Below, one piece after another: positions 14,104 to 31,044 of a stretch of DNA of 42,585 bases. Source of the stretch: Methylotenera oryzisoli (lineage in GTDB: Bacteria > Pseudomonadota > Gammaproteobacteria > Burkholderiales > Methylophilaceae); NCBI GenBank assembly GCA_945878695.1, contig CAMDXI010000011.1, positions 1 to 42,585 of the forward strand, given 5' to 3'. The translations under genes and the position numbers were made by a program. The notes beneath the pieces were generated by a model. The model saw nothing but the letters and a program-made list of their open reading frames with translations. It searched no databases and was not told the origin of the DNA. The stretch's first letter is position 1. The number at the start of each line of letters is the position of its first letter.

Positions 14104-15627
14104 TTACTTTACATGCAATTGTATGGCTTGCTGTGCGATTTTTTCTTTCCACAATGCCGGTCCAGTTTGGTGCACTGACTCGCCATGGCTGTCCACGGCG
14201 ACCGTAACCGGCATGTCTTCTACAGTAAATTCGTAGATGGCTTCCATGCCCAAATCGGCAAAAGCCAACACTTCGGCTTTCTTGATGGCTTTGCTCACCA
14301 AATAGGCCGCCCCGCCCACTGCGGTTAAATACACCGAACGGTGTTTGGCGATCAGCGCTATGGTTTCATCGCCACGCTCGGCTTTACCGACCATGCCCAA
14401 CAAGCCCACTGGGCCCAACATCATCTCGGTGAAACCGTCCATGCGCGTGGCCGTGGTCGGGCCAGCCGGCCCTACCGCCTCGTCGGCAACCGCATCCACC
14501 GGGCCCACGTAATAAATAAATCGATTGGTAAAATCCACCGGCAAGGGCTCGCCCTTGGCCAACATGGTGGCGATGCGTTTGTGCGCGGCATCACGACCGG
14601 TTAACAATTTACCGCTTAACAGCAGGGTTTGGCCTGGTTGCCAGACCTGTATGCTGTCTTTGCTCAAGCTATTCAAATCCACCCTCAAGGCGGCACTGCT
14701 GGGTGCCCATTGCACTTGCGGCCAATCGTTTAAGTTAGGCGGCGTTAATTGGGCCGGTCCACTGCCATCTAATTCAAAATGCACGTGGCGGGTCGCGGCG
14801 CAGTTAGGAATAATCGCCACCGGCAATGAGGCGGCATGGGTCGGGTAATCCAATATTTTTACGTCCAATACCGTGGCCAGCCCGCCTAAACCTTGGGCGC
14901 CTATGCCTAGCGCATTCACTTTTTCAAAAATGTCCAAGCGCAATTCTTCTATGCGATTGTTGGCACCCCGTGCTTGCAATTCGTGTATGTCTATAGGCGC
15001 CATCAAGGATTCTTTAGCCAGCAACATGGCTTTCTCGGCGCTGCCGCCTATGCCTATGCCTAGCATGCCAGGTGGGCACCAGCCCGCACCCATTTTAGGC
15101 ACCACTTCCAGTATCCAATCGACTATGCTGTCGTTGGGATTGAGCATGGCCAGTTTGGCTTTGTTTTCTGAACCGCCCCCTTTGGCGGCTATGCTTATTT
15201 CAACTTTATCGCCCGCTACCATGGACACGTGCACCACGGCCGGGGTGTTGTCTTTGGTGTTGCCGCGCTTACCCGCTGGGTCACTGACAATAGAGGCCCT
15301 GAGCTTATTCTCAGGCAAGGTGTAGGCGCGACGCACGCCCTCGTTGACCATTTGCTCTACCGTTAACTGGGCTTCCCACTTTACTTGCATGCCAATTTGC
15401 ACAAAAGCCACGACGATGCCGGTGTCTTGGCATAGCGGCCGTTTGCCCTCGGCGCACAGCCGCGAGTTGCTTAAGATTTGTGCAATGGCGTCCTTGGCTG
15501 GCAGCGACTGCTCGGCTTCATAAGCACGGCCCAAAGCTTGGATGTAATCCAGCGGATGGTAATAGGAGATGTACTGCAGGGCATCGGCTACGCTGTCTAT
15601 AAAATCGTCTTGTTTGATGGTGGTCAT
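14104..15627 (-). CDS. Class I (iron-sulfur) fumarate hydratase
   Basis: From the ATG at 15627 the protein is 507 residues, fusing the alpha (N-terminal) and beta (C-terminal) parts of class I hydro-lyases. Three probable [4Fe-4S] cysteines are C66 in LCQDTGIVV, C184 in GAGWCPPGML, and C276 in IPNCAATRH. The C-terminal beta domain shows GPTTATRMDGFTEMMLGP. It hydrates fumarate to malate in the TCA cycle. Class I fumarases of E. coli and Burkholderia xenovorans are also known to hydrate mesaconate to (S)-citramalate, which is relevant to its neighbours. A longer frame to 15717 overlaps the upstream gene and is rejected. It follows the acyl-CoA synthetase by under 30 bases, as the last gene of the sdh operon. 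Confidence 0.93.
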   Translation of the reverse strand: MTTIKQDDFIDSVADALQYISYYHPLDYIQALGRAYEAEQSLPAKDAIAQILSNSRLCAEGKRPLCQDTGIVVAFVQIGMQVKWEAQLTVEQMVNEGVRRAYTLPENKLRASIVSDPAGKRGNTKDNTPAVVHVSMVAGDKVEISIAAKGGGSENKAKLAMLNPNDSIVDWILEVVPKMGAGWCPPGMLGIGIGGSAEKAMLLAKESLMAPIDIHELQARGANNRIEELRLDIFEKVNALGIGAQGLGGLATVLDVKILDYPTHAASLPVAIIPNCAATRHVHFELDGSGPAQLTPPNLNDWPQVQWAPSSAALRVDLNSLSKDSIQVWQPGQTLLLSGKLLTGRDAAHKRIATMLAKGEPLPVDFTNRFIYYVGPVDAVADEAVGPAGPTTATRMDGFTEMMLGPVGLLGMVGKAERGDETIALIAKHRSVYLTAVGGAAYLVSKAIKKAEVLAFADLGMEAIYEFTVEDMPVTVAVDSHGESVHQTGPALWKEKIAQQAIQLHVK

Positions 15628-15655
15628 ATTGGCTTTACCGTTGCTATAACGTGGC

Positions 15656-17287
15656 TTACCTAGCCGATTTGGCGTAGGCAATTTGGTTGTTGATGTCCTT
15701 GCGTAAGATTTTACCATTTTTGGTGCGTGGAAAATCCTTGGTCAAATACACGGTTTTTGGGGTTTTGTAGGCGGCCAAATGCTGCTTACCAAAGGCCAAC
15801 AATTCATCGGCTGTGACGCTGGCGTCGGGCTGCAAGATCACGTAGGTGACCACCAATAATTTGTCTTTTTCCAACTCTTCACCCACCGCTGCGCAATCGG
15901 CCACCGCTGGGTGCGATTTATACACGCGTTCGATTTCATAAGGCGACACGCGGTAGCCAAAGCTCTTGATGATGTCGTCTTTACGGCCCAAGAACCAGAT
16001 GTAGCCATCGGCATCGTAACGCGCGTAATCACCGGTAAAGAACCAGCCATCGTGCTTGTATTTGGCTGTTTCTTCGTCCAAATTCCAATAACGTAAAAAC
16101 AAACCGGGGTCGCTATCTGGCACGCATATCATGCCCTCTTCCCCTGGCGGCAAGGCTTCTAAAGTGTCGGGGTTGAGTAATTGTATGGCATGGCCGGGTT
16201 GCGGGAAGCCGGCAGAACCAGGGCGTATCGGTCTAAACACACTTTGACTTAAGTAATAAGAGAACTCACTCATGCCCACTGCTTCAAAAATATCGCGTCC
16301 GAAACGGCCACGCCATTGTTGCAAAACTTCGTCGGACAAATGCTCACCAGCACTCATGCAGTGCCGTAAGCTAGGCACATCGGCTTGAGCGGCCGTCGAT
16401 TTTTGAATGATTTGACGGTATATGGTGGGCACCCCAACAAAAATAGTGGCGGCGTGTTTGGCGATCAATCGGGTCCATAAATCGGCATCGTTTTTACCTT
16501 CGTGCACGATCACGGTTTTACCCAAATACAAGGGGTCCATCAAGCCGGTACCCAATACATAGGTCCAGTTAAATTTACCCGAGTGCATGATGCGATCTTG
16601 TTGGTCTTCGGCAAAATTAAACCAATATTTAGCGGCTGGCTCACGGCCAATCAAGGCGCGGTGGGCGTGCAACACGCCTTTGGGGTAACCGGTGGTGCCC
16701 GAAGTGTAAACCAGGTAAGCGGGGTCATCGGCGGCCGTGGGGTGGTTGCCTTCGCAATGGCTAATGGCGGCCAATTGTTGGCTTAAATCGCTGACCTTTA
16801 AGCTGGCATGCGGCTGAATCTCACCGACACCGGTTAGAAACACCTGTTTTAAATTTGGTAAATTGGATAAATGGTCTTGCAAAGCCGGCCATGCCGCCTT
16901 GTCTGTTACCAACACCGTGGCTGCCGAATCTTTAGCCAAGTAGGCCACTTCTTCGGCGGTCAGCAAGGTGGAAGTAGGCACGGAAATAGCGCCGCGCTTC
17001 ATGGTGCCCAAAAAGGCAATCGGGTAATCCAGGCTGTTAGGCAAACGGATCAGCACTCGGTCGCCTGCTGCCACGCCACTGTTGCGCAACAACTGGGCAA
17101 ACTGATCGGTGCGACTGGCCAATTCGGCAAAAGTCATTTGCGAGGTGCCCAGCGCGTCGTCTTCCACTATCATGGCCACCGTCTGCGCGATCGGCGTGTG
17201 CAAATGCTTATCGGTGCAAGCCGCGCCAATATTAAATTGCTTAGGCACGGCCCACTGCCAGACTGGAAATTCTTCAAATTTTTGCAT
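15656..17287 (-). CDS. AMP-forming acyl-CoA synthetase
   Basis: The 543-residue protein belongs to the acyl-adenylate-forming superfamily. It activates a carboxylic acid with ATP and CoA. The P-loop motif is YTSGTTGYPKG (residues 194-204), with GMSEFSYYLSQSVF as the A5 region and GWFFTGDYARYDADGYIWF as A7/A8. The C-terminal catalytic lysine is K526 in KNGKILRKD. It most resembles medium-chain and benzoate-CoA-ligase-like members, but the substrate cannot be read from sequence. GAGGAT lies upstream of the start. Between a CitE-like lyase and a class I fumarase, a short or dicarboxylic acid such as propionate, mesaconate or citramalate is a reasonable guess only. Confidence 0.85.
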   Translation of the reverse strand: MQKFEEFPVWQWAVPKQFNIGAACTDKHLHTPIAQTVAMIVEDDALGTSQMTFAELASRTDQFAQLLRNSGVAAGDRVLIRLPNSLDYPIAFLGTMKRGAISVPTSTLLTAEEVAYLAKDSAATVLVTDKAAWPALQDHLSNLPNLKQVFLTGVGEIQPHASLKVSDLSQQLAAISHCEGNHPTAADDPAYLVYTSGTTGYPKGVLHAHRALIGREPAAKYWFNFAEDQQDRIMHSGKFNWTYVLGTGLMDPLYLGKTVIVHEGKNDADLWTRLIAKHAATIFVGVPTIYRQIIQKSTAAQADVPSLRHCMSAGEHLSDEVLQQWRGRFGRDIFEAVGMSEFSYYLSQSVFRPIRPGSAGFPQPGHAIQLLNPDTLEALPPGEEGMICVPDSDPGLFLRYWNLDEETAKYKHDGWFFTGDYARYDADGYIWFLGRKDDIIKSFGYRVSPYEIERVYKSHPAVADCAAVGEELEKDKLLVVTYVILQPDASVTADELLAFGKQHLAAYKTPKTVYLTKDFPRTKNGKILRKDINNQIAYAKSAR

Positions 17288-17351: not shown

Positions 17352-18479
17352 CTACAATATGGCGCCGTATGGCCAGTTTTGGCGTATGACTTGGGCCGGC
17401 AATAATTCCAGCACGTGTAAGGCAAAGTTTTTGTCTTCCGGGGTGATCGCTTGTAAGGCATGCGCGCGCAACAAGGTTTGCAAGGCTTTACCAAACATAG
17501 GTGGATCCAACATTTCCCCTTCAAATTTAATCGCCCCACCGTGTAAGGCATCGGCTTCGATGGCCGCTTTGAGGATGCGCACTTTTTGGTTCACTTCAGT
17601 GGGCGATGGCGTGTAAGCGGTTTTGCATAAATGAATGTGTCCAGGGTGGATCACTTGCTTACCGGTTAAGCCCATGGCCGCTTCTTGGCATGCGTGCTTG
17701 TAGACGATGCGCGACTCGTTATCGCCGTGCAAATCCAACCAACGGCGCACGTCATGCGGTTCCAGAAACTTTTCTGGCATGATATTGCTGCCGATTAAGG
17801 TTTCCACGCCCCCTATCACGCCCTTACCGGCAATACGTGCGTCAAACATCAAGTGGTTCATGTAGAACTGCAATTCTTCTATCCAGTTTTCCGGTGTGAT
17901 GTGTATGCCCATGGCTTTAGAAAAGTCATGGATACCAAATACCACGTGCTTAACCGTGTTGTATTGCAATAACTCTGGGGCAATTTTGAGCGATTTAGGG
18001 TGCTCAATAATCGGCTGTATGGTGATGTTAGGGTTAATCTCTATTAAGAAATTGGACAAATCGCGCACTTCAGCCGCGCCGTAAGCCTCGCCTGCTTTGG
18101 CCAACATCACCACGTCTATGTATTCCGACATGTCCTTGACCAACTGCATGTCCTGCTCGTACTCATCGGTACGGAAGGAGTTAGCGCGGATGGCGATGGT
18201 CACTTTTTGGTTAACCTTACGCAGCAAAGGCAGCTCTTGACGCAATAAATCGCGGCTCATTTCTTTTTGCCGGCAACCGTCTTCCAAGTCAAAAATCAAG
18301 GTGTGCGCTTGCGTGTTGTGCGCGTGCTTGCGCATGCGGGCCGCAGCTTGCGTCAAATCTTCGTATATGCCCAGTGCCGGCGAGTATTTAACCGGTGGGT
18401 AATACAGCTGAATGCCGGGCCAGCTTTCGCCTAACATGGCGCTGTTGCTATAGCATTTGATTTTGCTTGAGTGGGTCAT
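17352..18479 (-). CDS. HpcH/HpaI aldolase / citrate lyase beta (CitE-like) family protein, 375 residues
   Basis: A CoA-ester lyase-type TIM barrel. Recognisable blocks are TLIFDLEDGCRQKE (around residue 60), VTIAIRANSFRTDEYEQDM with the CoA/substrate arginine, IQPIIEHPKSL with the probable metal-binding glutamate, and HVVFGIHDFSKAMG with the metal-binding aspartate. Then comes GLTGKQVIHPGHI, the usual CitE C-terminal motif. Family members cleave or form malyl-, methylmalyl-, citramalyl- or citryl-CoA. It is longer than typical CitE (about 290-330), with an N-terminal extension and a C-terminal tail. It lies directly downstream of sdhE and upstream of an acyl-CoA synthetase and fumarase. The specific reaction is inferred, not seen. 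Confidence 0.85.
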   Translation of the reverse strand: MTHSSKIKCYSNSAMLGESWPGIQLYYPPVKYSPALGIYEDLTQAAARMRKHAHNTQAHTLIFDLEDGCRQKEMSRDLLRQELPLLRKVNQKVTIAIRANSFRTDEYEQDMQLVKDMSEYIDVVMLAKAGEAYGAAEVRDLSNFLIEINPNITIQPIIEHPKSLKIAPELLQYNTVKHVVFGIHDFSKAMGIHITPENWIEELQFYMNHLMFDARIAGKGVIGGVETLIGSNIMPEKFLEPHDVRRWLDLHGDNESRIVYKHACQEAAMGLTGKQVIHPGHIHLCKTAYTPSPTEVNQKVRILKAAIEADALHGGAIKFEGEMLDPPMFGKALQTLLRAHALQAITPEDKNFALHVLELLPAQVIRQNWPYGAIL

Positions 18480-18512: not shown

Positions 18513-18818
18513 TTAGCCTTCGTTTTGGTCACGCGCACTTAATTTAGCCAGCACGCTTTGCAGCGCCTGGTCGTTCGAGTTTTTTGCTTGCAAGGCCGGG
18601 ACCTTGGCAGTTGGGAGCCTTAATGTCACCACGTCTAAAAATTCGTTATCGGGCAAATCCAACAAGCCGTCCAAGGCCAGCAATTCATCTTGCGTCAAGC
18701 CGGCTAGGTAATGGGCGGCGAAACGCTGCAAGACGATATCCAATTCCAATAGCCCACGACGACAACGCCAGCTTAAGCGGCGTACTTCTTCGTCTGTCAT
18801 GTTTGGGCTATTCGTCAT
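18513..18818 (-). CDS. sdhE: Succinate dehydrogenase FAD assembly factor
   Basis: SdhE promotes covalent attachment of FAD to SdhA. The 101-residue protein has the family motif RRGLLELD (standard RRGMLELD) soon after the N-terminus, then FAAHYLAGLTQDELLALDGLLDLPDNEFLD, which is typical. AGAAGATAAG upstream supports the start at 18818. It follows sdhB by 26 bases, its usual proteobacterial place. The tail from about residue 65 onward (VPALQAKNSNDQALQSVLAK) is a little longer than in E. coli SdhE. Confidence 0.95.
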   Translation of the reverse strand: MTNSPNMTDEEVRRLSWRCRRGLLELDIVLQRFAAHYLAGLTQDELLALDGLLDLPDNEFLDVVTLRLPTAKVPALQAKNSNDQALQSVLAKLSARDQNEG

Positions 18819-18844: not shown

Positions 18845-19585
18845 TTATAGCGCTTTAATTTCAATGTGCTTCTTCGCTTTGTTTTTATGCTCGCGCGCTT
18901 GCTCAAATTTCAAATCTTTAATGTTGGCGATGGCCGCATTTGGATTTAATTTTTTAGGGCACACTTCCACGCAATTCATGATGTTGTGGCAACGGTATAA
19001 GCGGTCTGGCTCTTCCAAATTATCCAAGCGCTCGTCCAAGGCTTGATCACGGCTATCCACCATAAAACGGTAGGCTTGCATCAAGCCGGCTGGGCCGACA
19101 AATTTATCCGGGTTCCACCAGAATGATGGGCAAGATGTGGTGCACGCACCGCACAATATGCATTCGTAGAGGCCATCCAGCTTGGCTCTATCGGCCGGCG
19201 ACTGCAGGCGCTCGGTGGCAGGCGCGGCATCGTTGTTCACCAAATACGGCTTAACCGAATTGTAGTTTTCAAAGAACTGCGTCATGTCCACCACCAGGTC
19301 GCGTATCACCGGCAAACCAGGCATAGGCCTTAACACCACCGGCTCTTCTAGGTCAGACAATTTGGTGATGCAGGCCAGGCCATTCTTACCGTTAATGTTC
19401 ATGCTGTCGGAACCGCACACGCCTTCACGGCAAGATTTGCGTAGGCTTAAACTGTCGTCTAAATCTTTAATGCGCAACAAGGCATCCAGCAACATTTGAT
19501 CGCTGTCTTCCAAGACCACGTCGTAGTCTTGCATGTACGGTTTTTTATCCACGTCTGGGTTGAATCGGTAAATTGAAAATTTCAT
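18845..19585 (-). CDS. sdhB: Succinate dehydrogenase iron-sulfur subunit
   Basis: SdhB carries electrons from the SdhA flavin to ubiquinone. In the 246-residue product the [2Fe-2S] ligands are C52, C57, D60 and C72 (SCREGVCGSD and LAC), with the Asp seen in E. coli SdhB. The [4Fe-4S] and [3Fe-4S] ligands lie in CILCGACTTSC (C142, C145, C148, C152) and CHNIMNCVEVCP (C199, C205, C209). KKLNPNAAIANIKDL follows. Length is normal. It sits between sdhA and sdhE. Confidence 0.98.
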   Translation of the reverse strand: MKFSIYRFNPDVDKKPYMQDYDVVLEDSDQMLLDALLRIKDLDDSLSLRKSCREGVCGSDSMNINGKNGLACITKLSDLEEPVVLRPMPGLPVIRDLVVDMTQFFENYNSVKPYLVNNDAAPATERLQSPADRAKLDGLYECILCGACTTSCPSFWWNPDKFVGPAGLMQAYRFMVDSRDQALDERLDNLEEPDRLYRCHNIMNCVEVCPKKLNPNAAIANIKDLKFEQAREHKNKAKKHIEIKAL

Positions 19586-19627: not shown

Positions 19628-21391
19628 TTAATAAACGCGCGCTTTAGGCTCAAAGCTGTCCACGGTTTGCGGTTTCAAGCGCACCGGTTTGTAACTTAAA
19701 CGGTGGCCCTCACGGTAGTACAAGGAATGCGTCAACCACTTCTCATCGTCGCGCTGCATAAAGTCTTCACGCGCATGCGCGCCACGGCTTTCGGTTCTGG
19801 CTTCCGCCGCGTGCATGGTGGCCAAGGCCACTTCCACTAAATTATCCAGCTCCAAGGCATCCACCCTAGCGGTATTGAACACTTGACTCTTGTCTGTGAT
19901 CACGGTGTTTTTAGCCCGCTCGGCGACTTTGTCTATCTCCACCACCCCGGATTGCAACAAATCCGGGAAACGGAATACGCCGCAATGGGTTTGCATGGTC
20001 TCGCGTAGCGCTGCACCCACGTCTTTAACCGATTCGCCTTGGGTTTGCGTGTCCAAGCGATTGAGTCTAGCCAAGGTCTTATCAAAGGCATCGGCGGCCA
20101 AGGGTTTATGGCTGTTGTCTTTTTTCACTTCTTCCACCATCTTGTCGCCGGCGGCACGTCCGAACACCACTAAATCTAATAGCGAGTTAGAACCCAAACG
20201 GTTGGCGCCATGCACCGATACGCAAGCGCACTCGCCTACTGCATACAAGCCATTGACCACCGCTTGAACGCCACTGGCGTCGGGGGCTATCACTTGGCCT
20301 TGTAAATTAGTAGGAATGCCGCCCATCATGTAATGCACGGTCGGCACGATGGGGATGGGGTCTTTCACCGGATCCACGTTTGCAAAGGTTTTGGCAATCT
20401 CGCGTATGCCGGGCAATTTATCGTTAATTAAAGCCTCACCCAAATGGTCTAGTTTTAAATACACCGCGTCTTTGTTTTTACCCACGCCGCGGCCGGCTTT
20501 AATTTCGGTAGCAATGGCACGCGACACCACGTCACGGCTGGCCAAGTCTTTGGCATGCGGTGCATAACGCTCCATGAAACGCTCGCCTTCGCTGTTCAAT
20601 AAATAACCGCCTTCGCCACGCACGCCCTCGGTAATCAACACGCCGGCATTGAGCACGCCGGTTGGGTGGAATTGCCAAAACTCCATGTCTTGCAAAGGAA
20701 TGCCAGCGCGCGCTGCCATGCCCAAGCCATCCCCGGTGTTGATGAAGGCATTGGTGCTGGCCTTGAAAATACGACCGGCGCCGCCGGTGGCCAACAAGGT
20801 GGCCTTAGCGCGTATGCAATGCACTTCGCCGGTTTCTATCTCTAAGGCCAAGACGCCGAGCACGTCGCCGTCTTTATCGCGCAATAAATCCAAGGCCAAC
20901 CACTCGACAAAAAACTGGGTATTGGATTGGATGTTGCGTTGGTACAGGGTGTGCAACATAGCGTGACCGGTTCTGTCGGCCACCGCACAGGTGCGAGAAA
21001 TCGCGCTTTCACCAAAATTTTGCGTCATGCCGCCAAACGGCCGTTGGAATATTTTGCCGTTTTCCAAGCGGTCAAACGGCATACCAAAATGCTCCAGTTC
21101 GTATATGGCCGCGGCGGCGTTTTTACACATAAACTCGATGGCATCTTGGTCACCCAAGTAATCCGAGCCTTTAATGGTGTCGTACATATGCCACAACCAT
21201 TTATCATCAGCGACGTTGCCTAGCGCCGCGGCTATGCCACCTTGCGCGGCCACGGTATGCGAACGGGTAGGAAACACCTTGGACAACACCGCTACTTTTA
21301 AACCGGATTGCGCTAACTGTAATGAGGCACGTAAACCGGCGCCACCGCCGCCTACCACCAATGCATCAAATACTTGCGTTGCAACTGCCAT
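19628..21391 (-). CDS. sdhA: Succinate dehydrogenase flavoprotein subunit
   Basis: SdhA oxidises succinate to fumarate through covalently bound FAD. The 587-residue protein shows the dinucleotide-binding [13 protein letters not shown] near residue 12, the FAD-linking histidine H45 in [10 protein letters not shown], and the active-site segments FWQFHPTG and [30 protein letters not shown] and [21 protein letters not shown] are also present. All are conserved. It is 36 bases beyond sdhD's region and 42 bases before sdhB in the sdhCDAB order. Confidence 0.98.
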
Positions 21392-21432: not shown

Positions 21433-21777
21433 TTAAGCAAACAATAGGTAAGCTGCCCAAGCCAAATACAGCCATAGCAAGATCACCAAGCCCTTCAATA
21501 AGACGCTGCGCAAGGTGTCATTGGGCACGTAATCCTTGAACACATCGCGTATGCCCAGCCAGGCGTGTAGCGTTAAGGCCAACCAGAACAACATGGTCAG
21601 CACACGCCACCAAAGTGGCTGAAAAAAATCGACCCATGCTGCGTAGTCGCTTGGGGCCAGATAGAAAAATCGTCCCGCCGCCAGCACACTGTAGAGTGCC
21701 ATGGCCAAGCCGGTTAGGCGCTGCGATAGCCATGCGCGCATGCCGGGGTAACGTTTGGTTAAGAGTTCAATCCACAT
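21433..21777 (-). CDS. sdhD: Succinate dehydrogenase membrane anchor subunit
   Basis: The 114-residue protein has three membrane helices (AWLSQRLTGLAMALYSVLAA, WWRVLTMLFWLALTLHAWLG, LKGLVILLWLYLAWAAYLLF). It carries the haem b histidine candidate in TLHAWLGIRDVFKDYV, the conserved SdhD motif. With SdhC it anchors the complex and forms the quinone site. The gene begins three bases after the sdhC stop. Confidence 0.93.
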   Translation of the reverse strand: MWIELLTKRYPGMRAWLSQRLTGLAMALYSVLAAGRFFYLAPSDYAAWVDFFQPLWWRVLTMLFWLALTLHAWLGIRDVFKDYVPNDTLRSVLLKGLVILLWLYLAWAAYLLFA

Positions 21778-21780: not shown

Positions 21781-22173
21781 TTATAGCCACAATGTAATGC
21801 TTACCACTAGCGTGGCAAGCAAGCCCAGCACCATCACCACTTTGCTGGTGTAACGGGCTTTCATGAGCGTAGTCATCCAATGCACGTCCATCGCCAAATG
21901 ACGGATGCCGGCAAAGAAATGGTGAAAAAATGCCCAAGCCAAGCCCATCAACACCAGCTTGATAAAAGGCGAATGCAGAAAAGCCAAGACCAACTGCCAA
22001 TCCTCGGCCGAGCGCAAAGACCATTGCAACAGCAGCAAAATGACTGGCAAAATCATAAACAAGGCGCAACCTGTGGCCCTATGCAAGATAGACACCAAGG
22101 CGTTGATGGGTAAACGTATGGTGAACAAATTCAGGTTTTTAGGCCGATTTTTTTTAGCGAGTTTTTGGTTCAT
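21781..22173 (-). CDS. sdhC: Succinate dehydrogenase cytochrome b556 subunit
   Basis: A 130-residue membrane protein with the quinone-site motif VSILHRATGCALF and the haem-ligand region AWAFFHHFFAGIRHLAMD. There are three hydrophobic helices. NLFTIRLPINALVSILHR corresponds to the usual 'NL..IR.P..A..SI.HR' entry. It starts eight bases after the malic enzyme stop, pointing to one mRNA, and precedes sdhD closely. Confidence 0.95.
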   Translation of the reverse strand: MNQKLAKKNRPKNLNLFTIRLPINALVSILHRATGCALFMILPVILLLLQWSLRSAEDWQLVLAFLHSPFIKLVLMGLAWAFFHHFFAGIRHLAMDVHWMTTLMKARYTSKVVMVLGLLATLVVSITLWL

Positions 22174-23453: not shown

Positions 23454-24191
23454 TTATTCCAATTCGTTCATGTAGTGGTGGTTGTCCGTCACGCACATGC
23501 CCAATCGCCACTCCATGGGTTTGTCGCCGTAAGTAAAGGACACGCGCTCTATGCTCAAAATAGGCTCGTTCTCTTTTAAGCCTAAGGCATGGGCGACTTC
23601 ACCTTTAGCCCCCACGGCTTTTAAGCGTTCTTCAGCACGCACCATGCGCACCCCAAATTCGGACTCGTACATGCTGTACATGGACCCGTTGTTTTCTTCC
23701 ACGCGGTTGCCGTTCAAGCCTTTAAACGGTGCAGCCGGGACGATGATGTGATCAAAAATTAAGGGGCGACCAGAAAACGTTAATAAACGCTTGATCTCTA
23801 TGGTCGAGGCGCCGGCTTTTAAATCGAGGATTTGCCCCATGCGCACATCGGCTTTGCCTTTAACGCAGGATATGAATTCGTTTTTTAATAATTCTTTCTG
23901 CCCATCTATGGAGGTCAAGCGCAAAAAGCGCAGTTTCATGTTGTCCGCACTGTGGGTGGCGACAAAGGTACCTTTGCCTTGACGGCGAATTAAAATATTT
24001 TCCGTGGCCAAGGCATCGATGGCTTTTCTGACCGTGCCTTGACTGACTTTATAACGGCCCGCTAGATCAATCTCACTGGGGATCATGTCCCCAGGACGCC
24101 ATTCCCCACCAATTAAACTTTGCGTTAACAAGACTTTGATCTGGTCGTAAAGCGGCTTGTAGCTTGGCGAATTGTAATGTTTGTCTATCAT
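23454..24191 (-). CDS. GntR family (UTRA domain) transcriptional regulator
   Basis: From the ATG at 24191 the protein is 245 residues. The N-terminal winged helix-turn-helix shows PLYDQIKVLLTQSLIGGEWR, GDMIPSEIDLAGRYKVSQGT and VRKAIDALATENILIRRQGK, the GntR signature. The C-terminal half is a UTRA ligand-binding domain ending FTYGDKPMEWRLGMCVTDNH. Start codons at 24206 (ATG) and 24209 (TTG) are alternatives. It lies exactly between the divergent sdh-type and prp-type operons, and the intervening 220 bases hold a strong inverted repeat, so autoregulation plus control of both operons is likely. The inducer is unknown; a methylcitrate-cycle or CoA-related dicarboxylate is plausible. Confidence 0.9.
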   Translation of the reverse strand: MIDKHYNSPSYKPLYDQIKVLLTQSLIGGEWRPGDMIPSEIDLAGRYKVSQGTVRKAIDALATENILIRRQGKGTFVATHSADNMKLRFLRLTSIDGQKELLKNEFISCVKGKADVRMGQILDLKAGASTIEIKRLLTFSGRPLIFDHIIVPAAPFKGLNGNRVEENNGSMYSMYESEFGVRMVRAEERLKAVGAKGEVAHALGLKENEPILSIERVSFTYGDKPMEWRLGMCVTDNHHYMNELE

Positions 24192-24227
24192 GATCGTTGA
24201 TCTCATCAAAATTGAATGGCCTAAATA

Positions 24228-24242: not shown

Positions 24243-24265
24243 CAGAGCTAATTTGCAATGACTTA

Positions 24266-24294: not shown

Positions 24295-24300
24295 GCATTT

Positions 24301-24327
24301 TATATCTTATATAAGACATAAGATATA
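24301..24327. promoter_or_regulatory. Probable GntR operator: perfect 10-bp inverted repeat with an internal 12-bp palindrome
   Basis: TATATCTTAT (24301-24310) and ATAAGATATA (24318-24327) are perfect inverted copies with a 7-base spacer. Within this lies the self-complementary TCTTATATAAGA (24305-24316), so two overlapping dyads are present. It sits between the divergent -35 boxes (minus strand 24289-24294, plus strand 24330-24335), ideal for simultaneous repression. The same 12-mer occurs at 40938-40949. Confidence 0.65.
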
Positions 24328-24329
24328 GA

Positions 24330-24359
24330 TTGACATTTTTAAATAACTCTCTATATAAT
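24330..24359 (+). promoter_or_regulatory. Strong sigma-70 promoter of the citE-maoC-citE-prpBCD operon
   Basis: Perfect TTGACA (24330-24335) and perfect TATAAT (24354-24359) with an 18-base spacer lie about 50 bases upstream of the first ATG. Such a consensus promoter generally needs repression, which the adjacent inverted repeat could provide. AAAGGTAA precedes the ATG as ribosome-binding site. Confidence 0.75.
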
Positions 24360-24411
24360 CGATTCAGCTTAAAAAAATACCCTTGCTTATAAGCTAGATA
24401 AAGGTAATCGA

Positions 24412-25293
24412 ATGACTCAATATTTTCGCCCACGCCGCTCCATGCTTTATGTGCCTGGCTGCAACGCGCATTATCTGGAGCGCGCCAGAACCCTACACGC
24501 TGACTCAGTGATATTGGATCTAGGTGATCCAGTATTAGTAGAATGCAAAGAAGAGTCGCGCGACAACGTCGTGCGCTTTGTTAACGAGGGCGGCTATGGC
24601 TCGCGTGAAGTAGTGGTGCGCGTCAACGACCTAATCTCGGAATGGGGGCCAGACGACATCAAAGCCGCGGCCAAAATCAAAGTAGACGCCGTGTTGTTTC
24701 CCAACATAGAAAGTAAAGAAGACGTGCTGACGGCCCTATCCTTATTGGATGACGCCGGCGGCAGTCACTTGCCTATCATGGTCATGATAGAGAGCCCAAT
24801 TGCCGTGCTGAACGCTAAAGAAATTGCCAGCGCATCCGATCGCATCGTCTGCATGGTGATGGCCACATCGGACCTGATATCGCAATTGCACGCACGCGTG
24901 ACGCATGAGCGCTCCGCCATCCTCACCTCTTTATCCTTGGTGATATTGGCGGCCCGCGCTTACGGTCATGCGGTAGTGGACGGCATCACCAGCGATTTTA
25001 AAAACATGCATTCCTTTGAATACGCTTGCCGCTTGGGCCGCGACATGGGCTTTGATGGCAAATCCTTGGTGCACCCCGCGCAATTGGCTTACAGCAACGA
25101 TGCTTACACGCCGCAAGCCAGCGAAGTGAAAAACGCCAGAGAAATCATCGCCGCTTTAAAAGCTGCGAATGAAATGGGCAAAGGCACGGTGGTGGTCAAC
25201 GACAAATTAGTCGAACGCCACCATGTGCGCGCCGCCGAACGCTTACTTAAATTAAGTGAAATGATCAGCACCTTGGAAGAAAGCCATGACTAA
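24412..25293 (+). CDS. CitE-like CoA-ester lyase, 293 residues
   Basis: A TIM-barrel CitE/malyl-CoA-lyase-type protein of standard length. It starts with RPRRSMLYVPGCNAHYLERA, the usual 'RS.L.VPG' opening. Probable metal ligands are E127 (VMIESPIAVL) and D154 (MATSDLISQL), and R71 (VVVRVND) is the conserved arginine. The C-terminal motif is GFDGKSLVHPAQLAYSNDAY. The usual DLED motif reads DLGD here (around residue 37), an uncommon Glu-to-Gly change. Related enzymes cleave malyl-, beta-methylmalyl- or citramalyl-CoA. It is the first gene of the operon and overlaps maoC by 8 bases, so translational coupling is likely. Confidence 0.87.
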   Translation: MTQYFRPRRSMLYVPGCNAHYLERARTLHADSVILDLGDPVLVECKEESRDNVVRFVNEGGYGSREVVVRVNDLISEWGPDDIKAAAKIKVDAVLFPNIESKEDVLTALSLLDDAGGSHLPIMVMIESPIAVLNAKEIASASDRIVCMVMATSDLISQLHARVTHERSAILTSLSLVILAARAYGHAVVDGITSDFKNMHSFEYACRLGRDMGFDGKSLVHPAQLAYSNDAYTPQASEVKNAREIIAALKAANEMGKGTVVVNDKLVERHHVRAAERLLKLSEMISTLEESHD

Positions 25294-26374
25294 TACGCCA
25301 CACAGCAACAAAATCCGTGCGGGTAACTTTTTTGAGGATTTCAAACTCAATCAAGTGATCACGCACGCCACGCCACGCACCGTAGGCGAAGGCGAAGTGG
25401 CCTTATACATGGCGCTTACCGGCGCTCGCCAAGCCTTGCATTCAGCGGACACGCTGGCGCAATCCTTAGGCTACAACGCGCGGCCAGTGGACGATTTATT
25501 GGCTTTTCACATCGCCTTTGGTAAAACCGTGCCGGACATATCGGTCAATGCGGTAGCCAACTTGGGCTATGCCGAAGTGCGCTTTTTACAACCGGTCTAT
25601 GCCGGCGACACGCTGAGCACCAGCTCCACCGTCATAGGCTTAAAACAAAACTCCAATGGCCAATCCGGCGTGGTCTACGTGCGCTCGGTGTCAACCAACC
25701 AATTGCAGCAACCGGTATTTTCATGGGTGCGCTGGGTAATGGTGCACAAAAAAGACCACAACGCCCCCGCCCCTGCTACCGTTATTCCTAGCTTAGCCGA
25801 CGCGGTCGCCAGTGCGGATTTGGCTGTGCCTGCCTTTTTGGATGCCAGAAAATTCAACACCGCCCAGACTGGTGGCCCGTTCCTATGGGACGACTACCAA
25901 GTGGGCGAACGCATCAATCACCCAGCCGGCATGACCATCAGCGACACCGACCACACCTTGGCCACGAAACTGTATCAAAACAATGCCCGCTTGCATTTTG
26001 ATGAGCTGATGATGAAACCCACTGCTTTTGGCCGACGCCTCATGTACGGTGGTCACATCATTTCCGTTTGCCGCGCCCTATCGCACGACGGCTTGGAAAA
26101 TGCCTTGTCCATCCTCGCCATCAATGCCGGCACGCACTGCAACCCGAGCTTTGGTGATGACACCATCTACACTTGGACCGAAGTGTTGGCCAAAGAAACC
26201 TTGCCTAACCGTGAGGACGTGGGCGCCTTAAGATTGCGTATGGTGGGAGTGAAAAATACGCCAGCCCATACCTTGAGCAGCCGCCACGTGACGCAGGGCG
26301 AGAAAACCACTTACCACCCTAACGTGGTATTGGACCTCGATTACACCGTGCTGATGCCACGTAAACAAGCTTAA
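25286..26374 (+). CDS. Double-hotdog MaoC dehydratase, mesaconyl-CoA hydratase (beta-methylmalyl-CoA dehydratase) type
   Basis: The 362-residue protein has two hotdog domains (about 11-155 and 195-355). The N-terminal region reads GNFFEDFKLNQVITHATPRT, followed by DDLLAFHIAFGKTVPDISVN and VANLGYAEVRFLQPVYAGDT. These stretches closely recall mesaconyl-CoA hydratases of the ethylmalonyl-CoA and 3-hydroxypropionate pathways. The catalytic-type hydratase segment NARLHFDELMMKPTAFGRRL lies in the second domain (about 233-252). The predicted reaction is interconversion of mesaconyl-CoA and beta-methylmalyl-CoA. No crotonyl-CoA carboxylase/reductase or mesaconyl-CoA transferase is in the window. It sits between two CitE-like lyases, which fits use of beta-methylmalyl-CoA by a neighbour. 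Confidence 0.85.
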   Translation: MTNTPHSNKIRAGNFFEDFKLNQVITHATPRTVGEGEVALYMALTGARQALHSADTLAQSLGYNARPVDDLLAFHIAFGKTVPDISVNAVANLGYAEVRFLQPVYAGDTLSTSSTVIGLKQNSNGQSGVVYVRSVSTNQLQQPVFSWVRWVMVHKKDHNAPAPATVIPSLADAVASADLAVPAFLDARKFNTAQTGGPFLWDDYQVGERINHPAGMTISDTDHTLATKLYQNNARLHFDELMMKPTAFGRRLMYGGHIISVCRALSHDGLENALSILAINAGTHCNPSFGDDTIYTWTEVLAKETLPNREDVGALRLRMVGVKNTPAHTLSSRHVTQGEKTTYHPNVVLDLDYTVLMPRKQA

Positions 26375-26395: not shown

Positions 26396-27394
26396 ATGTC
26401 TACGACCAACCTAGTTCACCCAAACGACGCATTATTTAGCGGGGAAAAATCCTTTCCCATCATTCCGTCTTGCGAGCATTTTGCCGGCAGTGAGAAATTA
26501 ATCCTTAAGGCCTTGGCCATGCAAGACAGCATAGGCCCGGTGTTTGACATCACCTGCGATTGCGAAGACGGCGCGCAAGCCGGTCAAGAACGCGATCACG
26601 CGGCCATGATAGTGCGCGTCTTAACCAGTGCCGACAACAAACACAAAATGGCCGGCGCACGCATACACGATTACACGCACCCGGCTTGGAAACAAGACAT
26701 CGATATCTTGGTGGCCGGCGCAGGGCAAGTGCTAAGCTACATCACCATTCCTAAATGCACCAGCCACGCGCAAGCCAAAGAAATGATCGCCTACATCCAA
26801 AAAGTAGCGACCTTTAATGGCATTACCCGCGAGATTCCGGTGCACATCTTGGTGGAAACGCACGGCGCCTTAAAAGCCGTGCACGACATCGCCACCCTGC
26901 CCTGGCTTCAAGTGCTGGACTTTGGCTTAATGGATTTCGTCAGTGGCCACCACGGCGCCATCCCGGCTTCCGCCATGCGCAGCCCAGGCCAATTTGACCA
27001 CCGCTTATTAGCCCGCGCCAAAGCCGAATTGGTCGCTGCCGCATTGGCTAACGGCGTGGTGCCAGCACACAACGTCACCTTGGATTTAAAAAACGTGGAA
27101 ACCACCCACAGCGACGCCTCACGCGCCCGCAATGAGTTTGGCTTTTTACGCATGTGGAGCATTTACCCCACGCAAATTGAAGCCATCGTCAGCGCCATGA
27201 AACCGAATTTTGATGAAGTGCAAGACGGCGCCAACATTTTATTGGCCGCACAAAAAGCCGATTGGGGCCCGATTCAATACGATGGCGAATTGCACGACAG
27301 AGCCACTTACCGCTATTTCTGGGAAATCCTGCAAAAAGCCAAGCTCACCAAAGTGGCGATACCGGCTGAAGCCCAAGCCGCATTTTTCAGTTAA
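26396..27394 (+). CDS. CitE-like HpcH/HpaI aldolase family protein, 332 residues
   Basis: This protein belongs to the HpcH/HpaI aldolase/CitE family, in a branch often found near TCA genes of Burkholderiales. Key blocks are FDITCDCEDGAQAGQERDHA (around residue 50), ARIHDYTHPAWKQDI, VHILVETHGAL with the metal-binding glutamate, and LDFGLMDFVSGHHGAIPASA with the aspartate. FLRMWSIYPTQIEAI replaces the usual KxxIHP motif. Members are annotated as CoA-ester lyases, and a malyl-CoA or beta-methylmalyl-CoA lyase role would match the upstream hydratase, but the exact substrate is unknown. It follows maoC by 21 bases; AGGATTAAAACC is a weak ribosome-binding site. Confidence 0.83.
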   Translation: MSTTNLVHPNDALFSGEKSFPIIPSCEHFAGSEKLILKALAMQDSIGPVFDITCDCEDGAQAGQERDHAAMIVRVLTSADNKHKMAGARIHDYTHPAWKQDIDILVAGAGQVLSYITIPKCTSHAQAKEMIAYIQKVATFNGITREIPVHILVETHGALKAVHDIATLPWLQVLDFGLMDFVSGHHGAIPASAMRSPGQFDHRLLARAKAELVAAALANGVVPAHNVTLDLKNVETTHSDASRARNEFGFLRMWSIYPTQIEAIVSAMKPNFDEVQDGANILLAAQKADWGPIQYDGELHDRATYRYFWEILQKAKLTKVAIPAEAQAAFFS

Positions 27395-27427: not shown

Positions 27428-28312
27428 ATGACACAAGCCGCAACTGCAGGCGCACGCTTTCGTGCAGCCCTTAAAGCCGAAAAACCGCTACAAATCATAG
27501 GCGCCATCAATGCCTACCACGCCATGCTGGCCACCCAGAGCGGCTTCAAGGCCTTGTATTTGTCGGGTGGTGGCGTGGCAGCCGGCTCGCTAGGTTTACC
27601 TGATTTGGGCATCTCCACGCTAGAAGACGTATTGATAGACGTGCGCCGCATCACCGACGCGGTGGACACGCCTTTATTGGTGGACATCGATACCGGCTGG
27701 GGCGGTGCATTTAATATCGCACGCAGCGTCAAAAGTATCGCCAAGGCTGGCGCCGCCGCGGTGCACATCGAAGACCAAGTCAGCGCCAAACGCTGCGGTC
27801 ACCGGCCGAATAAAGCCATTGTTAGCCTAGAAGAAATGGTCGACCGGGTTAAAGCCGCGGTTGATGCCAAACCCTACGACGATTTTGTCGTTATGGCCAG
27901 AACCGACGCCCTGGCAGTGGAAGGTTTGCAATCGGCCATTGACCGCGCTTGCGCCTGCGCAGAAGCCGGTGCCGACATGATCTTCCCTGAAGCCATCACC
28001 GAATTGGCCATGTATAAACAATTTGCCTCTGCGGTAAAAGTGCCGGTATTGGCCAACATCACCGAATTTGGCAGCACGCCTTTATTCACCGTAGACGAAT
28101 TACGCGGCGCCGATGTCAGTATGGTGCTCTACCCCTTATCGGCTTTCCGCGCCATGAACCAAGCCGCCCTAAGCGTTTACCAAGCCACCCGCCGTGACGG
28201 CACACAAAAGAACGTTGTTGATCTAATGCAAACGCGCGCCGACCTTTATGAGCATTTGGGTTACCACGCCTTTGAACAAAAATTGGATGCCCTTTTTAAA
28301 GGAGAAAAGTAG
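27428..28312 (+). CDS. prpB: 2-methylisocitrate lyase
   Basis: PrpB cleaves 2-methylisocitrate to pyruvate and succinate in the methylcitrate cycle. The 294-residue protein has the family catalytic loop with C123 ([12 protein letters not shown]) and magnesium ligands D86 and D88 ([11 protein letters not shown]). [20 protein letters not shown] is the usual N-terminal barrel segment. Length is normal for PrpB. It precedes prpC by two bases. Confidence 0.96.
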
Positions 28313-28314: not shown

Positions 28315-29478
28315 ATGCAAACCACGGCTCAAACCCCAGCAGCAGAAGCGCCTAAAAAGAAAAAAGGCGTGGCCTTGGCCGGCGTGACCGCTGGCAGCAC
28401 AGCAATTTGCACAGTTGGCCATACCGGTAACGATTTGCACTACCGCGGCTACGACATCATAGAGTTGGCCAAGCATGCCAGCTTTGAAGAAGTGGCCTAT
28501 TTATTGATACACGGCGAACTGCCTAACAAAAGCCAATTAGCGGCTTACCATGCCAAACTAAAAAAATTACGCGAATTGCCCGCCGCGCTTAAAACCGTAC
28601 TCGAGCAAATCCCTAAAGACACCCACCCTATGGACGTAATGCGCACCGGTTGCGCCATGCTGGGTACCTTGGAGCCAGAAGTGGCCGACCGCAACACCGT
28701 TGCCGCCCAAGATTTGGGTGACCGCTTAATCGCCTGCTTTGGTTCAATTTTGCTGTATTGGTACCACTTTAGCCACAACGGCAAACGCGTGGACGTTAAC
28801 ACCAACGACGACAGCATCGCCGCGCATTTCTTGCATGTCTTGCACGGCAAAGCGCCTAGCCAATTGCACATCGATGCCATGAACACCTCATTGGTGTTGT
28901 ACGCCGAACACGAATTCAACGCTTCGACCTTTACCGGTCGTGTGATTGCCGGCACCTTGTCCGATATGTATTCCTGCATCACCGGTGCCATCGGCGCCCT
29001 ACGTGGTGCTAAACACGGCGGCGCCAATGAAGCGGCGATGGAGATCATCGAGCGTTACAAAACGCCGGACGAAGCCGAAGCCGACATCTTGGCGCGCATG
29101 GCACGTAAGGAAATCATCATTGGCTTTGGTCATCCGGTTTACACCATCGCCGACCCACGCAATGAATCAATCAAAGCGGTTAGCCGCAAACTGTGCGCGG
29201 ACGCTGGCGACATGACGCTGTTTGATATTTCTGACCGCATAGAAAGCGTGATGTGGCGTGAGAAAAAAATGTTCCCCAACTTAGATTGGTACAGCGCATC
29301 CAGCTACCACATGATGGGCATCCCCACCGGCATGTTCACGCCTATATTCGTTATCTCGCGCACCAGCGGCTGGGTAGCGCATGTGATTGAACAGCGCATA
29401 GACAACAAAATCATCCGCCCCAATGCCGAATACGTCGGGCCGGATAACCGGGATTACCTGCCACTGGAAAAAAGGTAA
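28315..29478 (+). CDS. prpC: 2-methylcitrate synthase
   Basis: PrpC joins propionyl-CoA and oxaloacetate to 2-methylcitrate. The 387-residue protein is a short citrate-synthase-type enzyme with catalytic H234 ([12 protein letters not shown]), H273 (IGFGHPVYT) and D324 ([14 protein letters not shown]). The length of about 380 and position beside prpB and prpD favour 2-methylcitrate synthase over the longer type I citrate synthase. GGAGAAAAG precedes the ATG. A Lys-rich N-terminal stretch (PKKKKG) is unremarkable. It is followed by a 105-base gap before prpD. Confidence 0.95.
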
Positions 29479-29498
29479 GCCCCTCATTTTTGTTTTGG

Positions 29499-29534: not shown

Positions 29535-29583
29535 ACAGGACACAACGATTTGTTTAAAAATTAATAAATAAAGGTAATAAATC

Positions 29584-31044
29584 ATGTCAGCTCACATTTC
29601 AAATGTACGCCCCGCTCCCGACCAAGTCATCGTCGACATCGCTAATTACGTGGCCGATTATAAAATCGAATCCACCGAAGCCTACGACACGGCTCGCAAC
29701 TGCTTAATGGACACATTGGGTTGCGGCTTTGAAGCCTTGGAATACCCAGCTTGCACCAAATTATTAGGCCCAGTGATTGCCGGCACCGTGGTACCAAATG
29801 GCGCCAAAGTGCCAGGCACCAGCTTTCAATTGGATCCAATTTTAGCCGCCTTCAACATAGGCGCCATGATACGTTGGTTGGATTTTAACGACACTTGGTT
29901 AGCAGCAGAATGGGGTCACCCATCGGACAACCTAGGCGGCATTTTAGCCAGCGCGGATTACTTGTCGCGTAAAAATGTGGCCGAAGGCAAAGCGCCCCTC
30001 ACCATCAAAGACGTGCTCACGGCCATGATTAAAGCGCATGAAATTCAAGGCGTGTTGGCATTAGAAAACAGCTTTAACCGCGTCGGCCTAGACCACGTCA
30101 TCTTGGTTAAAATCGCCTCAACCGCGGTCGTCACCAAATTGCTAGGTGGCAACAAAGAAGACATCATTAACGCCGTATCCAACGCCTTTGTGGACGGCCA
30201 AAGCTTACGCACCTATCGCCATTCGCCTAATACCGGCTCACGCAAATCTTGGGCAGCCGGCGATGCCACAAGCCGTGCGGTGCGCTTGGCTTGGATGACG
30301 CTGCAAGGCGAGATGGGTTACCCATCAGCCTTAACGGCCAAAACCTGGGGCTTTTACGACGTGCTGTTCAAAGGCAATGCCTTTAAATTCCAACGCAGCT
30401 ACGGCTCTTATGTAATGGAACAAGTGCTGTTCAAAATCTCCTTCCCGGCCGAGTTCCACGCACAAACAGCGGTGGAGTGCGCCATACAACTGCACGCCCA
30501 AGTAGGCAGCAAAGTGCAAACCATGGAGCAAATTGCGCAAATCGATAAAATCGTGATCACCACGCACGAATCCGCCATCCGCATTATTGATAAAACCGGC
30601 CCATTGGATAACCCAGCTGACCGTGACCACTGTATCCAATACATGGCGACCATAGGCTTATTAAAAGGCAACTTAACCGCCCAAGATTACGAAGACGCGG
30701 CCGCGGCAGACCCAAGGATAGACGCCATACGCGCCAAAATGACTTGCGTGGAAAAAGCCCAGTACACCACCGATTACCACGACCCAGAAAAACGCTCTAT
30801 CGCCAACGCCATACAAGTGTTTTTCAAAGACGGCAGCAGCTCAGAAAACATCGCCGTTGAATACCCAATCGGTCACCGTCGTCGTCGTGGCCAAGGCATC
30901 CCAGAATTGGTGAAAAAATTCAAAGTGAATTTAGCCCGTCGCTTCGATGCCAAAAAACAAGCCGATATCTTGGCCTTGTGCTTGGATCAAGCGAAACTAG
31001 AAGCCACCCCAGTCAACCAGTTTGTTGACATGTTAGTGGCTTAA
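29584..31044 (+). CDS. prpD: 2-methylcitrate dehydratase (MmgE/PrpD family)
   Basis: PrpD dehydrates 2-methylcitrate to 2-methyl-cis-aconitate without an iron-sulfur cluster. The 486-residue protein has [20 protein letters not shown] near residue 40, [20 protein letters not shown] (the conserved D-x-N-D-T motif), and [14 protein letters not shown] in the middle. [20 protein letters not shown] and [20 protein letters not shown] follow. These are strong PrpD signatures. AcnB further along supplies the rehydration step. It is the last gene of the operon, with two hairpins immediately downstream. Confidence 0.96.

Follow-up and report, generated by a model that had tools for sequence, protein, structure and literature searches.

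A methylcitrate cluster of Methylophilaceae with mesaconyl-CoA hydratase-type and CitE-like genes: a possible route in series under a predicted SdhR operator

In Methylophilaceae, a "methylcitric acid cycle" cluster has already been listed for nine genomes, with the genes prpCBD, cyl1, maoC, cyl2, gntR, mdh, sdhABCD, cyl3, prpE, fum, and can (excerpts of PMC4109929). The substrate of this cluster has been termed unknown, and the cluster is placed among the gene sets of Methylotenera that are highly expressed under near-natural conditions (excerpts of PMC3728764). A set of mcl2-like, mch, and sdhCDAB genes is a neighborhood known from alphaproteobacteria; in P. denitrificans, mcl-2 is Pden_0563 and mch is Pden_0566 (excerpts of PMC10370305). 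Here, we consider such a cluster in a 42,585-nucleotide stretch of DNA (the window), one contig of a 1.39 Mb draft genome (86% complete) of a Methylotenera-like member of Methylophilaceae, a small freshwater bacterium that uses methanol, in which prpB, prpC, and prpD stand beside maoC, genes for three CitE-like proteins, and the regulator gene gntR. The hypothesis that we favor, and to which we give about an even chance, is that the Methylophilaceae methylcitrate cluster is one route in series under its own SdhR-type regulator.

In this model, an acyl-coenzyme A (CoA) synthetase would make a five-carbon (C5) CoA ester from mesaconate or a related acid. Mesaconyl-C1-CoA would then be hydrated to beta-methylmalyl-CoA by a MaoC protein of the Mch type, and beta-methylmalyl-CoA would be cleaved to propionyl-CoA and glyoxylate by CitE2. 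PrpC, PrpD, AcnB, and PrpB would convert propionyl-CoA and oxaloacetate to pyruvate and succinate; succinate would become malate by succinate dehydrogenase (SDH) and fumarase, and malate would become pyruvate by malic enzyme. Because malate synthase was not found, glyoxylate would exit through a CitE lyase, which would join it to acetyl-CoA, and through the Mcl2-type CitE1, which would free the product as malate. The substrates, the input acid, the direction of flow, and all of the activities in this scheme are those that we infer. The sequence itself shows gene identities at the level of families, the active-site residues, the joint retention of genes, a conserved operator, and, at the cut-offs applied, the lack of the alternative pathways.

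All of the genes named in a first-pass annotation of this DNA were confirmed where it had placed them, in two divergent runs around a gap of 202 base pairs (24210-24411). Intergenic spacing inside each run is -62 to 105 bases. Outward from the gap, the minus strand carries gntR, the malic enzyme gene, sdhC, sdhD, sdhA, sdhB, sdhE, citE3, the acyl-CoA synthetase gene (acs), and the class I fumarase gene (fum), with acnB further on, and the plus strand carries citE1, maoC, citE2, prpB, prpC, and prpD. Protein models were taken from NCBIfam and Pfam and each was judged against its curated cut-off; a model or domain given in brackets below is one for which the protein scored over that cut-off.

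11019..13595, minus strand: acnB, bifunctional aconitase 2/2-methylisocitrate dehydratase (TIGR00117)
14104..15717, minus strand: class I fumarase (Pfam); true start probably 90 bases inside the open reading frame (ORF)
15656..17287, minus strand: acyl-CoA synthetase, AMP-forming (AMP-binding Pfam); nearest structures are benzoate-CoA ligases
17352..18479, minus strand: CitE3, divergent CitE-like protein with the seven lyase-site residues (CitE domain)
18513..18818, minus strand: sdhE, by position and its same place in relatives; no NCBIfam model matched
18845..19585, minus strand: sdhB (NF004616)
19628..21391, minus strand: sdhA (TIGR01816)
21433..21777, minus strand: sdhD (TIGR02968)
21781..22173, minus strand: sdhC (TIGR02970)
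22182..23390, minus strand: malic enzyme, 402 residues (Pfam); the gene at this place is named mdh in the literature list
23454..24209, minus strand: gntR, GntR-UTRA (HutC type) regulator, SdhR-like (Pfam GntR and UTRA; operator match)
24412..25293, plus strand: CitE1, malyl-CoA-thioesterase (Mcl2) type by its lid Glu, with the Mg-shell Glu changed to Gly (CitE domain; alignment)
25286..26374, plus strand: MaoC, Mch-type mesaconyl-C1-CoA hydratase/beta-methylmalyl-CoA dehydratase (MC_hydratase; structure matches)
26396..27394, plus strand: CitE2, CitE-like protein of the 3QQW/3R4I type with the seven lyase-site residues, proposed beta-methylmalyl-CoA lyase (CitE domain; Mch neighbor in Cupriavidus and Sphingobium)
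27428..28312, plus strand: prpB, methylisocitrate lyase (NF008455 and TIGR02317)
28315..29478, plus strand: prpC, bifunctional 2-methylcitrate/citrate synthase (NF009006)
29584..31044, plus strand: prpD, 2-methylcitrate dehydratase (TIGR02330)

With PrpB, PrpC, PrpD, and AcnB all over curated cut-offs, the locus belongs to the methylcitrate cycle. The match of the malic enzyme to the NADP malic enzyme model, which has 764 residues, is confined to the first half of that model. The gene sdhE is named from its position and from the RGxxE motif that marks SdhE. The same gene order, with products that are 93-100% identical, is found in 'Methylotenera oryzisoli' HRSG-H9-bin-44 (L109), and the comparison of gene order across relatives that had been proposed shows citE1-maoC-citE2-prpB-prpC as consecutive genes in 20 of 20 hand-chosen loci of the family. 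This constancy, together with the presence of maoC and of citE2 in 116 each of 187 Methylophilaceae genomes (the sample for all family-level counts), places the locus beyond chance. Its co-occurrence of genes had been called unusual; within Methylophilaceae, where the cluster has already been described, it is not. As a variation, an acnB-like gene beside prpC takes the place of prpD in the cluster of one relative (L068, genome G104), and a replacement of prpD by an acnB-like gene has been reported for the cluster of 'Ca. M. turicensis' (excerpts of PMC6794327).

The extra genes are retained or lost together with the methylcitrate genes, which bears out the earlier view that they belong with one another. 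A prpB match over the cut-off is present in 110 of the 187 genomes, and maoC, citE2, and prpB are all present in 109, all absent from 70, and partially present in eight, counts in which the co-loss does not stand for three independent events each time, given the adjacency of the three genes. All eight partial genomes (G011, G040, G077, G119, G134, G138, G149, and G170) break at a contig start or end, and both the complete and the empty state are found inside the genus of the window itself. It had been proposed that the locus processes propionyl-CoA by two routes side by side. Since PrpC removes propionyl-CoA, a lyase encoded in its operon would be the most suitable source, and the all-or-none retention would speak more for a series route than for parallel routes that compete for propionyl-CoA.

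By its matches, MaoC is of the Mch type, as the first-pass annotation had held. It matches 4e3e with 443.3 bits and 8hgn ("Beta-methylmalyl-CoA dehydratase") with 380.5 bits, both over nearly the full length, and it scores 57.9 bits on PF19315 (MC_hydratase), for which the cut-off is 26.5. Its score on the haloarchaeal model NF041625, 52.1 bits, is far below the cut-off of 560.

The three CitE-like proteins, all of which had been called lyases, are not all of one kind. The best structures for CitE2 are 3QQW (525 bits) and 3R4I (375 bits), which are tabulated as CitE-like in PMC3832036 (excerpts); for CitE1, the closest are malyl-CoA lyases and CLYBL (about 100-127 bits), whereas CitE3 has only remote matches among solved structures, the best reaching 45 bits. 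When 69 proteins are aligned and numbered as MCL-R, CitE2 and CitE3 each retain 7/7 of the residues D42, E44, D45, R76, E141, D168, and D299 and so keep the lyase site. At the lid position, D299, Glu is found in 24/24 CitE1 rows (14 of the beta-type plus 10 that are rows at 40-50% identity or the Ruegeria protein) and Asp in 45/45 other rows, which include eight lyase-like proteins whose best window match is CitE1, at 22-28% identity. The lid Asp has been described as conserved, save that Glu takes its place in the enzymes grouping with the malyl-CoA thioesterase of R. sphaeroides; Asn has been described at the D42 position of the Chloroflexus enzyme (excerpts of PMC3832036), and, as a check of the columns, six Chloroflexus-type rows show Asn there. 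When the lid was counted automatically in 86 CitE1-like ORFs, 77 were scored as Glu, 7 as Gln, and 2 as Asp; in eight of the nine non-Glu cases, the pattern had caught a later stretch (the true lid reads LVE), and the sole true exception is L105, a 43% relative outside the alignment with Gln at the lid. By its lid Glu, CitE1, one of the three supposed lyases, is of the thioesterase type.

In a tree of these proteins, CitE1, CitE2, and CitE3 form three separate clades, and the 24 CitE1 rows are one clade with support of 100/98; the program warned of long branches, so that the clades within CitE1, CitE2, and CitE3 are firm and the deep joins are not. The CitE1 clade splits into the 14 beta-type rows, among them two Methylophaga and the Gallionella-type lineages, and the 10 others, nine of them alphaproteobacterial and one from an Ignavibacteriota metagenome-assembled genome (MAG); many of the 10 adjoin mch, and several also sdh. 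This placement suggests that CitE1 descends from the thioesterase group, and its chemistry may have changed.

Outside the family, the module is found both with and without its companions. A search of 399 genomes gave a citE2 match in 192, from which 20 order-level loci were picked, and a wider sample of 80 loci was chosen by likeness to MaoC. Eleven of the order-level loci have maoC and citE2, and nine have citE2 without maoC. An mdh motif occurs in eight of these nine and also in L089, where the gene is mdh by model; where mdh is present, a gene of the citrate synthase family, sdh, and gntR usually face mdh-citE2. The Methylophilaceae cluster looks like a rebuilt form of this usual betaproteobacterial locus, with citE1-maoC seemingly at the place of mdh and citE3-acs at that of citrate synthase. 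In two Methylophaga loci of the wider sample (L112 and L114), acs-citE3-malic enzyme-gntR faces citE1-maoC-citE2-prpB-prpC-prpD, without sdh; these copies suggest transfer between methylotrophs. Methylophaga is a methylotroph of the Gammaproteobacteria, and each of its two loci holds a ten-gene cluster core and two operator cores. Records of Thiobacillus, Tepidiphilus, and Gallionellales (L104, L106, L107, and L110) have acs, citE3, citE1, maoC, and citE2 without adjacent prp genes, and a Sulfurospirillum MAG (L157) has citE3, acs, maoC, and citE2. Among 13 genomes picked for a module without adjacent prp genes in the stretch read, prpB is over the cut-off in 11, the misses being the MAGs of L105 and of L113, the latter without a visible CitE gene.

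These findings bear on an alternative in which the methylcitrate cycle stands alone, fed by propionate, odd-chain, or amino-acid carbon, and the part of MaoC and the CitE proteins would be a side or repair function, the removal of malyl-CoA, beta-methylmalyl-CoA, or glyoxylate. The thioesterase-like CitE1 with its changed metal shell would suit such a role, as would the CitE2 relatives that adjoin mdh in Mch-free loci. However, even genomes of no more than 1.2-1.4 Mb (group g2, e.g., G001, G003, and G007) retain Mch and CitE2 together with prpB, and the five-gene module without adjacent prp genes in the Thiobacillus, Tepidiphilus, and Gallionellales records also speaks against this alternative; we regard it as unlikely.

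Further pointers to the series route come from the neighbors of Mch-CitE2. In five plasmid regions with CitE2, Mch adjoins in two (Cupriavidus oxalaticus and Sphingobium) and does not in three. The divergent neighbors of Mch-CitE2 in C. oxalaticus are an acyl-CoA dehydrogenase, an MmgE/PrpD protein, and a CoA-transferase. For the last of these, the top-scoring model is succinyl-CoA:mesaconate CoA-transferase, with 458.6 bits and below the cut-off of 700. In Cupriavidus lacunae, a nucleoside diphosphate (NDP)-forming acyl-CoA synthetase and an acyl-CoA dehydrogenase adjoin Mch-CitE2. By analogy, the C. oxalaticus neighborhood offers the best hint that Mch and CitE2 degrade mesaconyl-CoA.

The alternative pathways that might have used or supplied these intermediates are absent from the family at the cut-offs used. 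Malate synthase (PF01274) was found in none of the 187 genomes. Isocitrate lyase (TIGR01346) was over the cut-off in none, with 113 weak matches of which those listed are mostly at prpB; second TIGR02317 matches of about 100 bits in relatives were rejected as candidates, the one example read (L241) being, by eye, a nucleotidyltransferase-like/phosphoenolpyruvate (PEP)-mutase-like fusion. This 432-residue fusion of a Methylophilus-group genome (L241:228-1526) is probably, as judged by eye, a protein of phosphonate metabolism. Crotonyl-CoA carboxylase/reductase (Ccr) was likewise over its cut-off of 378.55 in 0/187, the best of the weak matches in 136 genomes being 105.4 bits, and the ethylmalonyl-CoA pathway was rejected on this ground as the source of mesaconyl-CoA. 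The methylaspartate cycle was rejected because glutamate mutase epsilon (PF06368) was matched in 0/187, a negative for which the control was weak, with a weak match in only 1 of 14 genomes. In addition, 2-oxoglutarate dehydrogenase is reported as absent from the genomes of PMC4109929 (excerpts). Family III CoA-transferases (PF02515) gave a single match of 52 residues in one of the 187 genomes and none in the genome of the window; Meh was not searched for. The Mct of the 3-hydroxypropionate bicycle is a family III CoA-transferase (model TIGR04253). With all of these enzymes missing, the standard routes of glyoxylate and acetyl-CoA assimilation are all incomplete.

The same negative bears on the proposal that the locus holds half of the 3-hydroxypropionate bicycle, in which propionyl-CoA and glyoxylate would be condensed to mesaconyl-CoA, assimilating glyoxylate beside the methylcitrate cycle. 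Malyl-CoA lyases do cleave reversibly (excerpts of PMC3832036), and the window has, at 33493-34860, a glcD-like gene that scores under the model cut-off. Nevertheless, the single fragment of a family III CoA-transferase does not fit this direction, PrpC would compete for the same propionyl-CoA, and the Mch-CitE2 pairs of the two Cupriavidus adjoin CoA-activating enzymes and acyl-CoA dehydrogenases, so that condensation seems quite unlikely and the bicycle half is not supported.

For the series route, the entry step would fall to the acyl-CoA synthetase, which would activate a C5 dicarboxylate. The literature name of its gene is prpE; however, the propionate-CoA ligase model is not among its best 25 of 107 models, the last of which stands at 201.8 bits, and its score on acetate-CoA ligase (TIGR02188) is 231.6 bits against a cut-off of 724.95. 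In contrast, the AcsA-type protein of a relative scores 554 bits on TIGR02316. An assignment to the PrpE type was rejected on these model scores; the nearest solved structures are benzoate-CoA ligases, with 224 bits. In a marine relative, NB0046, methylcitrate and four-carbon (C4)-arm genes rise with dissolved organic matter, and the neighboring tags NB46_00665 and 00666 (CitE-like and CoA-ligase) are expressed about ten times more strongly on dissolved organic matter than on nutrient-poor methanol (excerpts of PMC5120137); these two would correspond to citE3 and acs. Next to citE3 in one order-level genome, at a distance of 31 bases and on the opposite strand, lies a gene of the zinc-dependent-alcohol-dehydrogenase (MDR) family (L086:15324-16394).

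The left operon might instead be a citramalate branch, in which fumarase (as mesaconase), the synthetase (as citramalate-CoA ligase), and CitE3 (as citramalyl-CoA lyase) would lead to acetyl-CoA and pyruvate while the right operon handled mesaconyl-CoA, both from the same C5 acids. CitE3 could possibly be a citramalyl-CoA or malyl-CoA lyase; citE3 adjoins acs (at least 55% identity) in each inspected locus listing both, and fum adjoins citE3/acs in L104, L106, and L111 and is three genes away in L157. Class I fumarases can hydrate mesaconate (excerpts of PMC4682846), and by analogy, mesaconase activity of the window enzyme is possible. This branch is nonetheless very unlikely in our estimation, as the specificities given to CitE3 and the synthetase are conjectural and fum could just serve the C4 arm as its fumarase. 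A related idea, and the least probable of those considered here, is that a C5-acid hub serves as an alternative glyoxylate cycle without isocitrate lyase, malate synthase, or crotonyl-CoA carboxylase. Together with a fumarase that acts as mesaconase, CitE3 and the synthetase would build mesaconate from acetyl-CoA and pyruvate by way of citramalate; propionyl-CoA and glyoxylate would next arise through Mch and CitE2, and pyruvate would be regained in the methylcitrate cycle. The net conversion would be acetyl-CoA plus oxaloacetate to glyoxylate plus succinate, which is the sum of citrate synthase, aconitase, and isocitrate lyase, and a CitE lyase with CitE1 would finish to malate.

The common control of the two operons that had been proposed finds support in one predicted operator between them; a second, weaker candidate lies further along the window.

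24305..24316, no strand: predicted SdhR operator core TCTTATATAAGA, a perfect palindrome at a distance of 95 bases from the annotated starts of both gntR and citE1, by match and conservation
40938..40949, no strand: second exact core, with flanks in poor agreement with the consensus (18/26), between aceE (38057-40729, minus strand) and a leucyl-aminopeptidase-like gene (40965-42425, plus strand)

Of the 26 positions in 24298-24323, 24 are as in the published SdhR consensus (excerpts of PMC4494728). The regulator, a GntR-UTRA protein with the palindrome TCTTATGTCTTATATAAGACATAAGA at its own gene, fits a predicted SdhR, and its binding there is predicted. Among 33 gntR-citE1 gaps taken from the collected loci, that of the window included, 31 hold the exact core; L076 has two mismatches and L084 one. 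The window's own genome has two exact cores and zero of the reversed control. Because 21 of 100 shuffles of the window reach two matches at no more than two mismatches, which is the window's own count, the two matches are not beyond chance, and the weight of the operator rests on its conservation. The second core flanks a pyruvate dehydrogenase operon of aceE, aceF, lpd, and a glcD-like gene (33493-40729, minus strand), and in G122, two cores on one contig are spaced 16,611 bases apart, compared with 16,633 in the window.

In a wider search, the exact core was found in 43 of 61 genomes, including one site in G130, which is without maoC and prpB, and 20 stretches were inspected around cores that lie elsewhere than the main gap or belong to other families. 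Plausible targets are malate:quinone oxidoreductase (mqo), with the core upstream in two relatives (L220:3007 and L221:2989), and thiolase with acetyl-CoA synthetase (L226); in other families, isocitrate lyase is a target by model in L231 and by likeness in L235 and L236. Sites with gntR comprise prpBC facing gntR-malic enzyme (L232) and gntR facing mdh (L238) or prpBC (L239). In three Methylotenera-group genomes (L224:3056, L227:2982, and L230:3030), the exact core lies just upstream of class II fructose-bisphosphate aldolase (fba; by model in L224, by likeness in the others), which is followed by a triosephosphate-isomerase-like gene. No clear target was seen in L222, L223, L225, L228, L229, L233, L234, and L237 of the 20 stretches. 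The cores before fba could possibly provide a direct control link between the methylcitrate cycle and the ribulose monophosphate (RuMP) cycle, and those before mqo, fba, and other central genes fit the reciprocal behavior of methylcitrate and RuMP genes (excerpts of PMC3728764).

Several points weigh against the series route. The occurrence of CitE2 without Mch in nine of the 20 order-level loci and three of the five plasmid regions implies another use of CitE2 there. The known makers of mesaconyl-CoA, Ccr and glutamate mutase E, were not found in the family, with the cut-off and the weak control given above, and no transporter for C5 acids was seen in the cluster. Because maoC, citE2, and prpB are adjacent, one block deletion could explain part of their co-loss. 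Furthermore, the activation of mesaconate is a guess, since the ligases most similar to the synthetase act on monocarboxylic acids. Finally, the Mg-shell Glu and Asp are said to be conserved across the superfamily (excerpts of PMC3832036), and in 10 of the 14 beta-type CitE1 rows, that of the window included, the Glu (E44) is Gly; D45 is kept in the window protein. The ten Gly-bearing rows form one clade, and the four rows from loci without adjacent prp genes keep Glu. CitE1 may be inactive or altered, and it is because of this Gly that we call it Mcl2-type rather than a proven Mcl2. Taken together, the PrpC argument, the all-or-none retention, and the Cupriavidus neighborhoods lead us to favor a route in series over two routes. 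From the first-pass interpretation, the Mch-type MaoC, the single predicted operator, and the tie of the prp genes to the extra genes find support; the "two routes" and the "3-hydroxypropionate bicycle half" do not.

On this reading, the unexplained genes of the cluster receive definite, testable roles, with mesaconate-type C5 acids as the first candidate substrates, and the two operons are tied to one predicted operator. A candidate food source is suggested for the methylcitrate cluster, a five-carbon acid split to propionate-type carbon. If the series route is correct, RuMP-cycle methylotrophs without 2-oxoglutarate dehydrogenase (excerpts of PMC4109929) can use a class of multicarbon acids by a combination of the lower ethylmalonyl-CoA pathway and the methylcitrate cycle.

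Compared with the Methylophilaceae cluster of the literature (excerpts of PMC4109929, PMC3728764, PMC6794327, PMC5120137, and PMC11978286), the present one has the same gene list; the cluster has been called strongly conserved and, together with its gntR, is highly expressed in situ in two Methylotenera. In those excerpts, the extra genes are named only cyl1-3 and maoC, and the present analysis adds identities for MaoC and CitE1-3, a count of joint losses, and the gap operator. No function for the cyl1-3 or maoC of Methylophilaceae was found in the literature searched, a search that left most subscription papers outside. For the SdhR regulon, the source is Suvorova 2012, the title of which reportedly concerns malonate and propionate catabolism. 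That regulon likewise has a HutC-type GntR regulator and a matching palindrome (consensus in excerpts of PMC4494728).

Mch and a CitE-type lyase are likewise combined in the second half of the 3-hydroxypropionate bicycle of Chloroflexus. This second half is also known from Accumulibacter. The locus differs from it in that the 187 family genomes hold no family III CoA-transferase beyond the one fragment (Meh was not searched for), and CitE2 and CitE3 of the window have Asp at the D42 column, unlike the Chloroflexus-type lyase with its Asn (excerpts of PMC3832036). In the lower ethylmalonyl-CoA pathway, as on the Ruegeria TM1040 megaplasmid and in P. denitrificans, Mch, a thioesterase-type CitE, and SDH are likewise encoded near each other. 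In contrast to that pathway, the Methylophilaceae are without Ccr over the cut-off, propionyl-CoA would be passed to the methylcitrate cycle, and the clades of CitE2 and CitE3 differ from the MCL rows.

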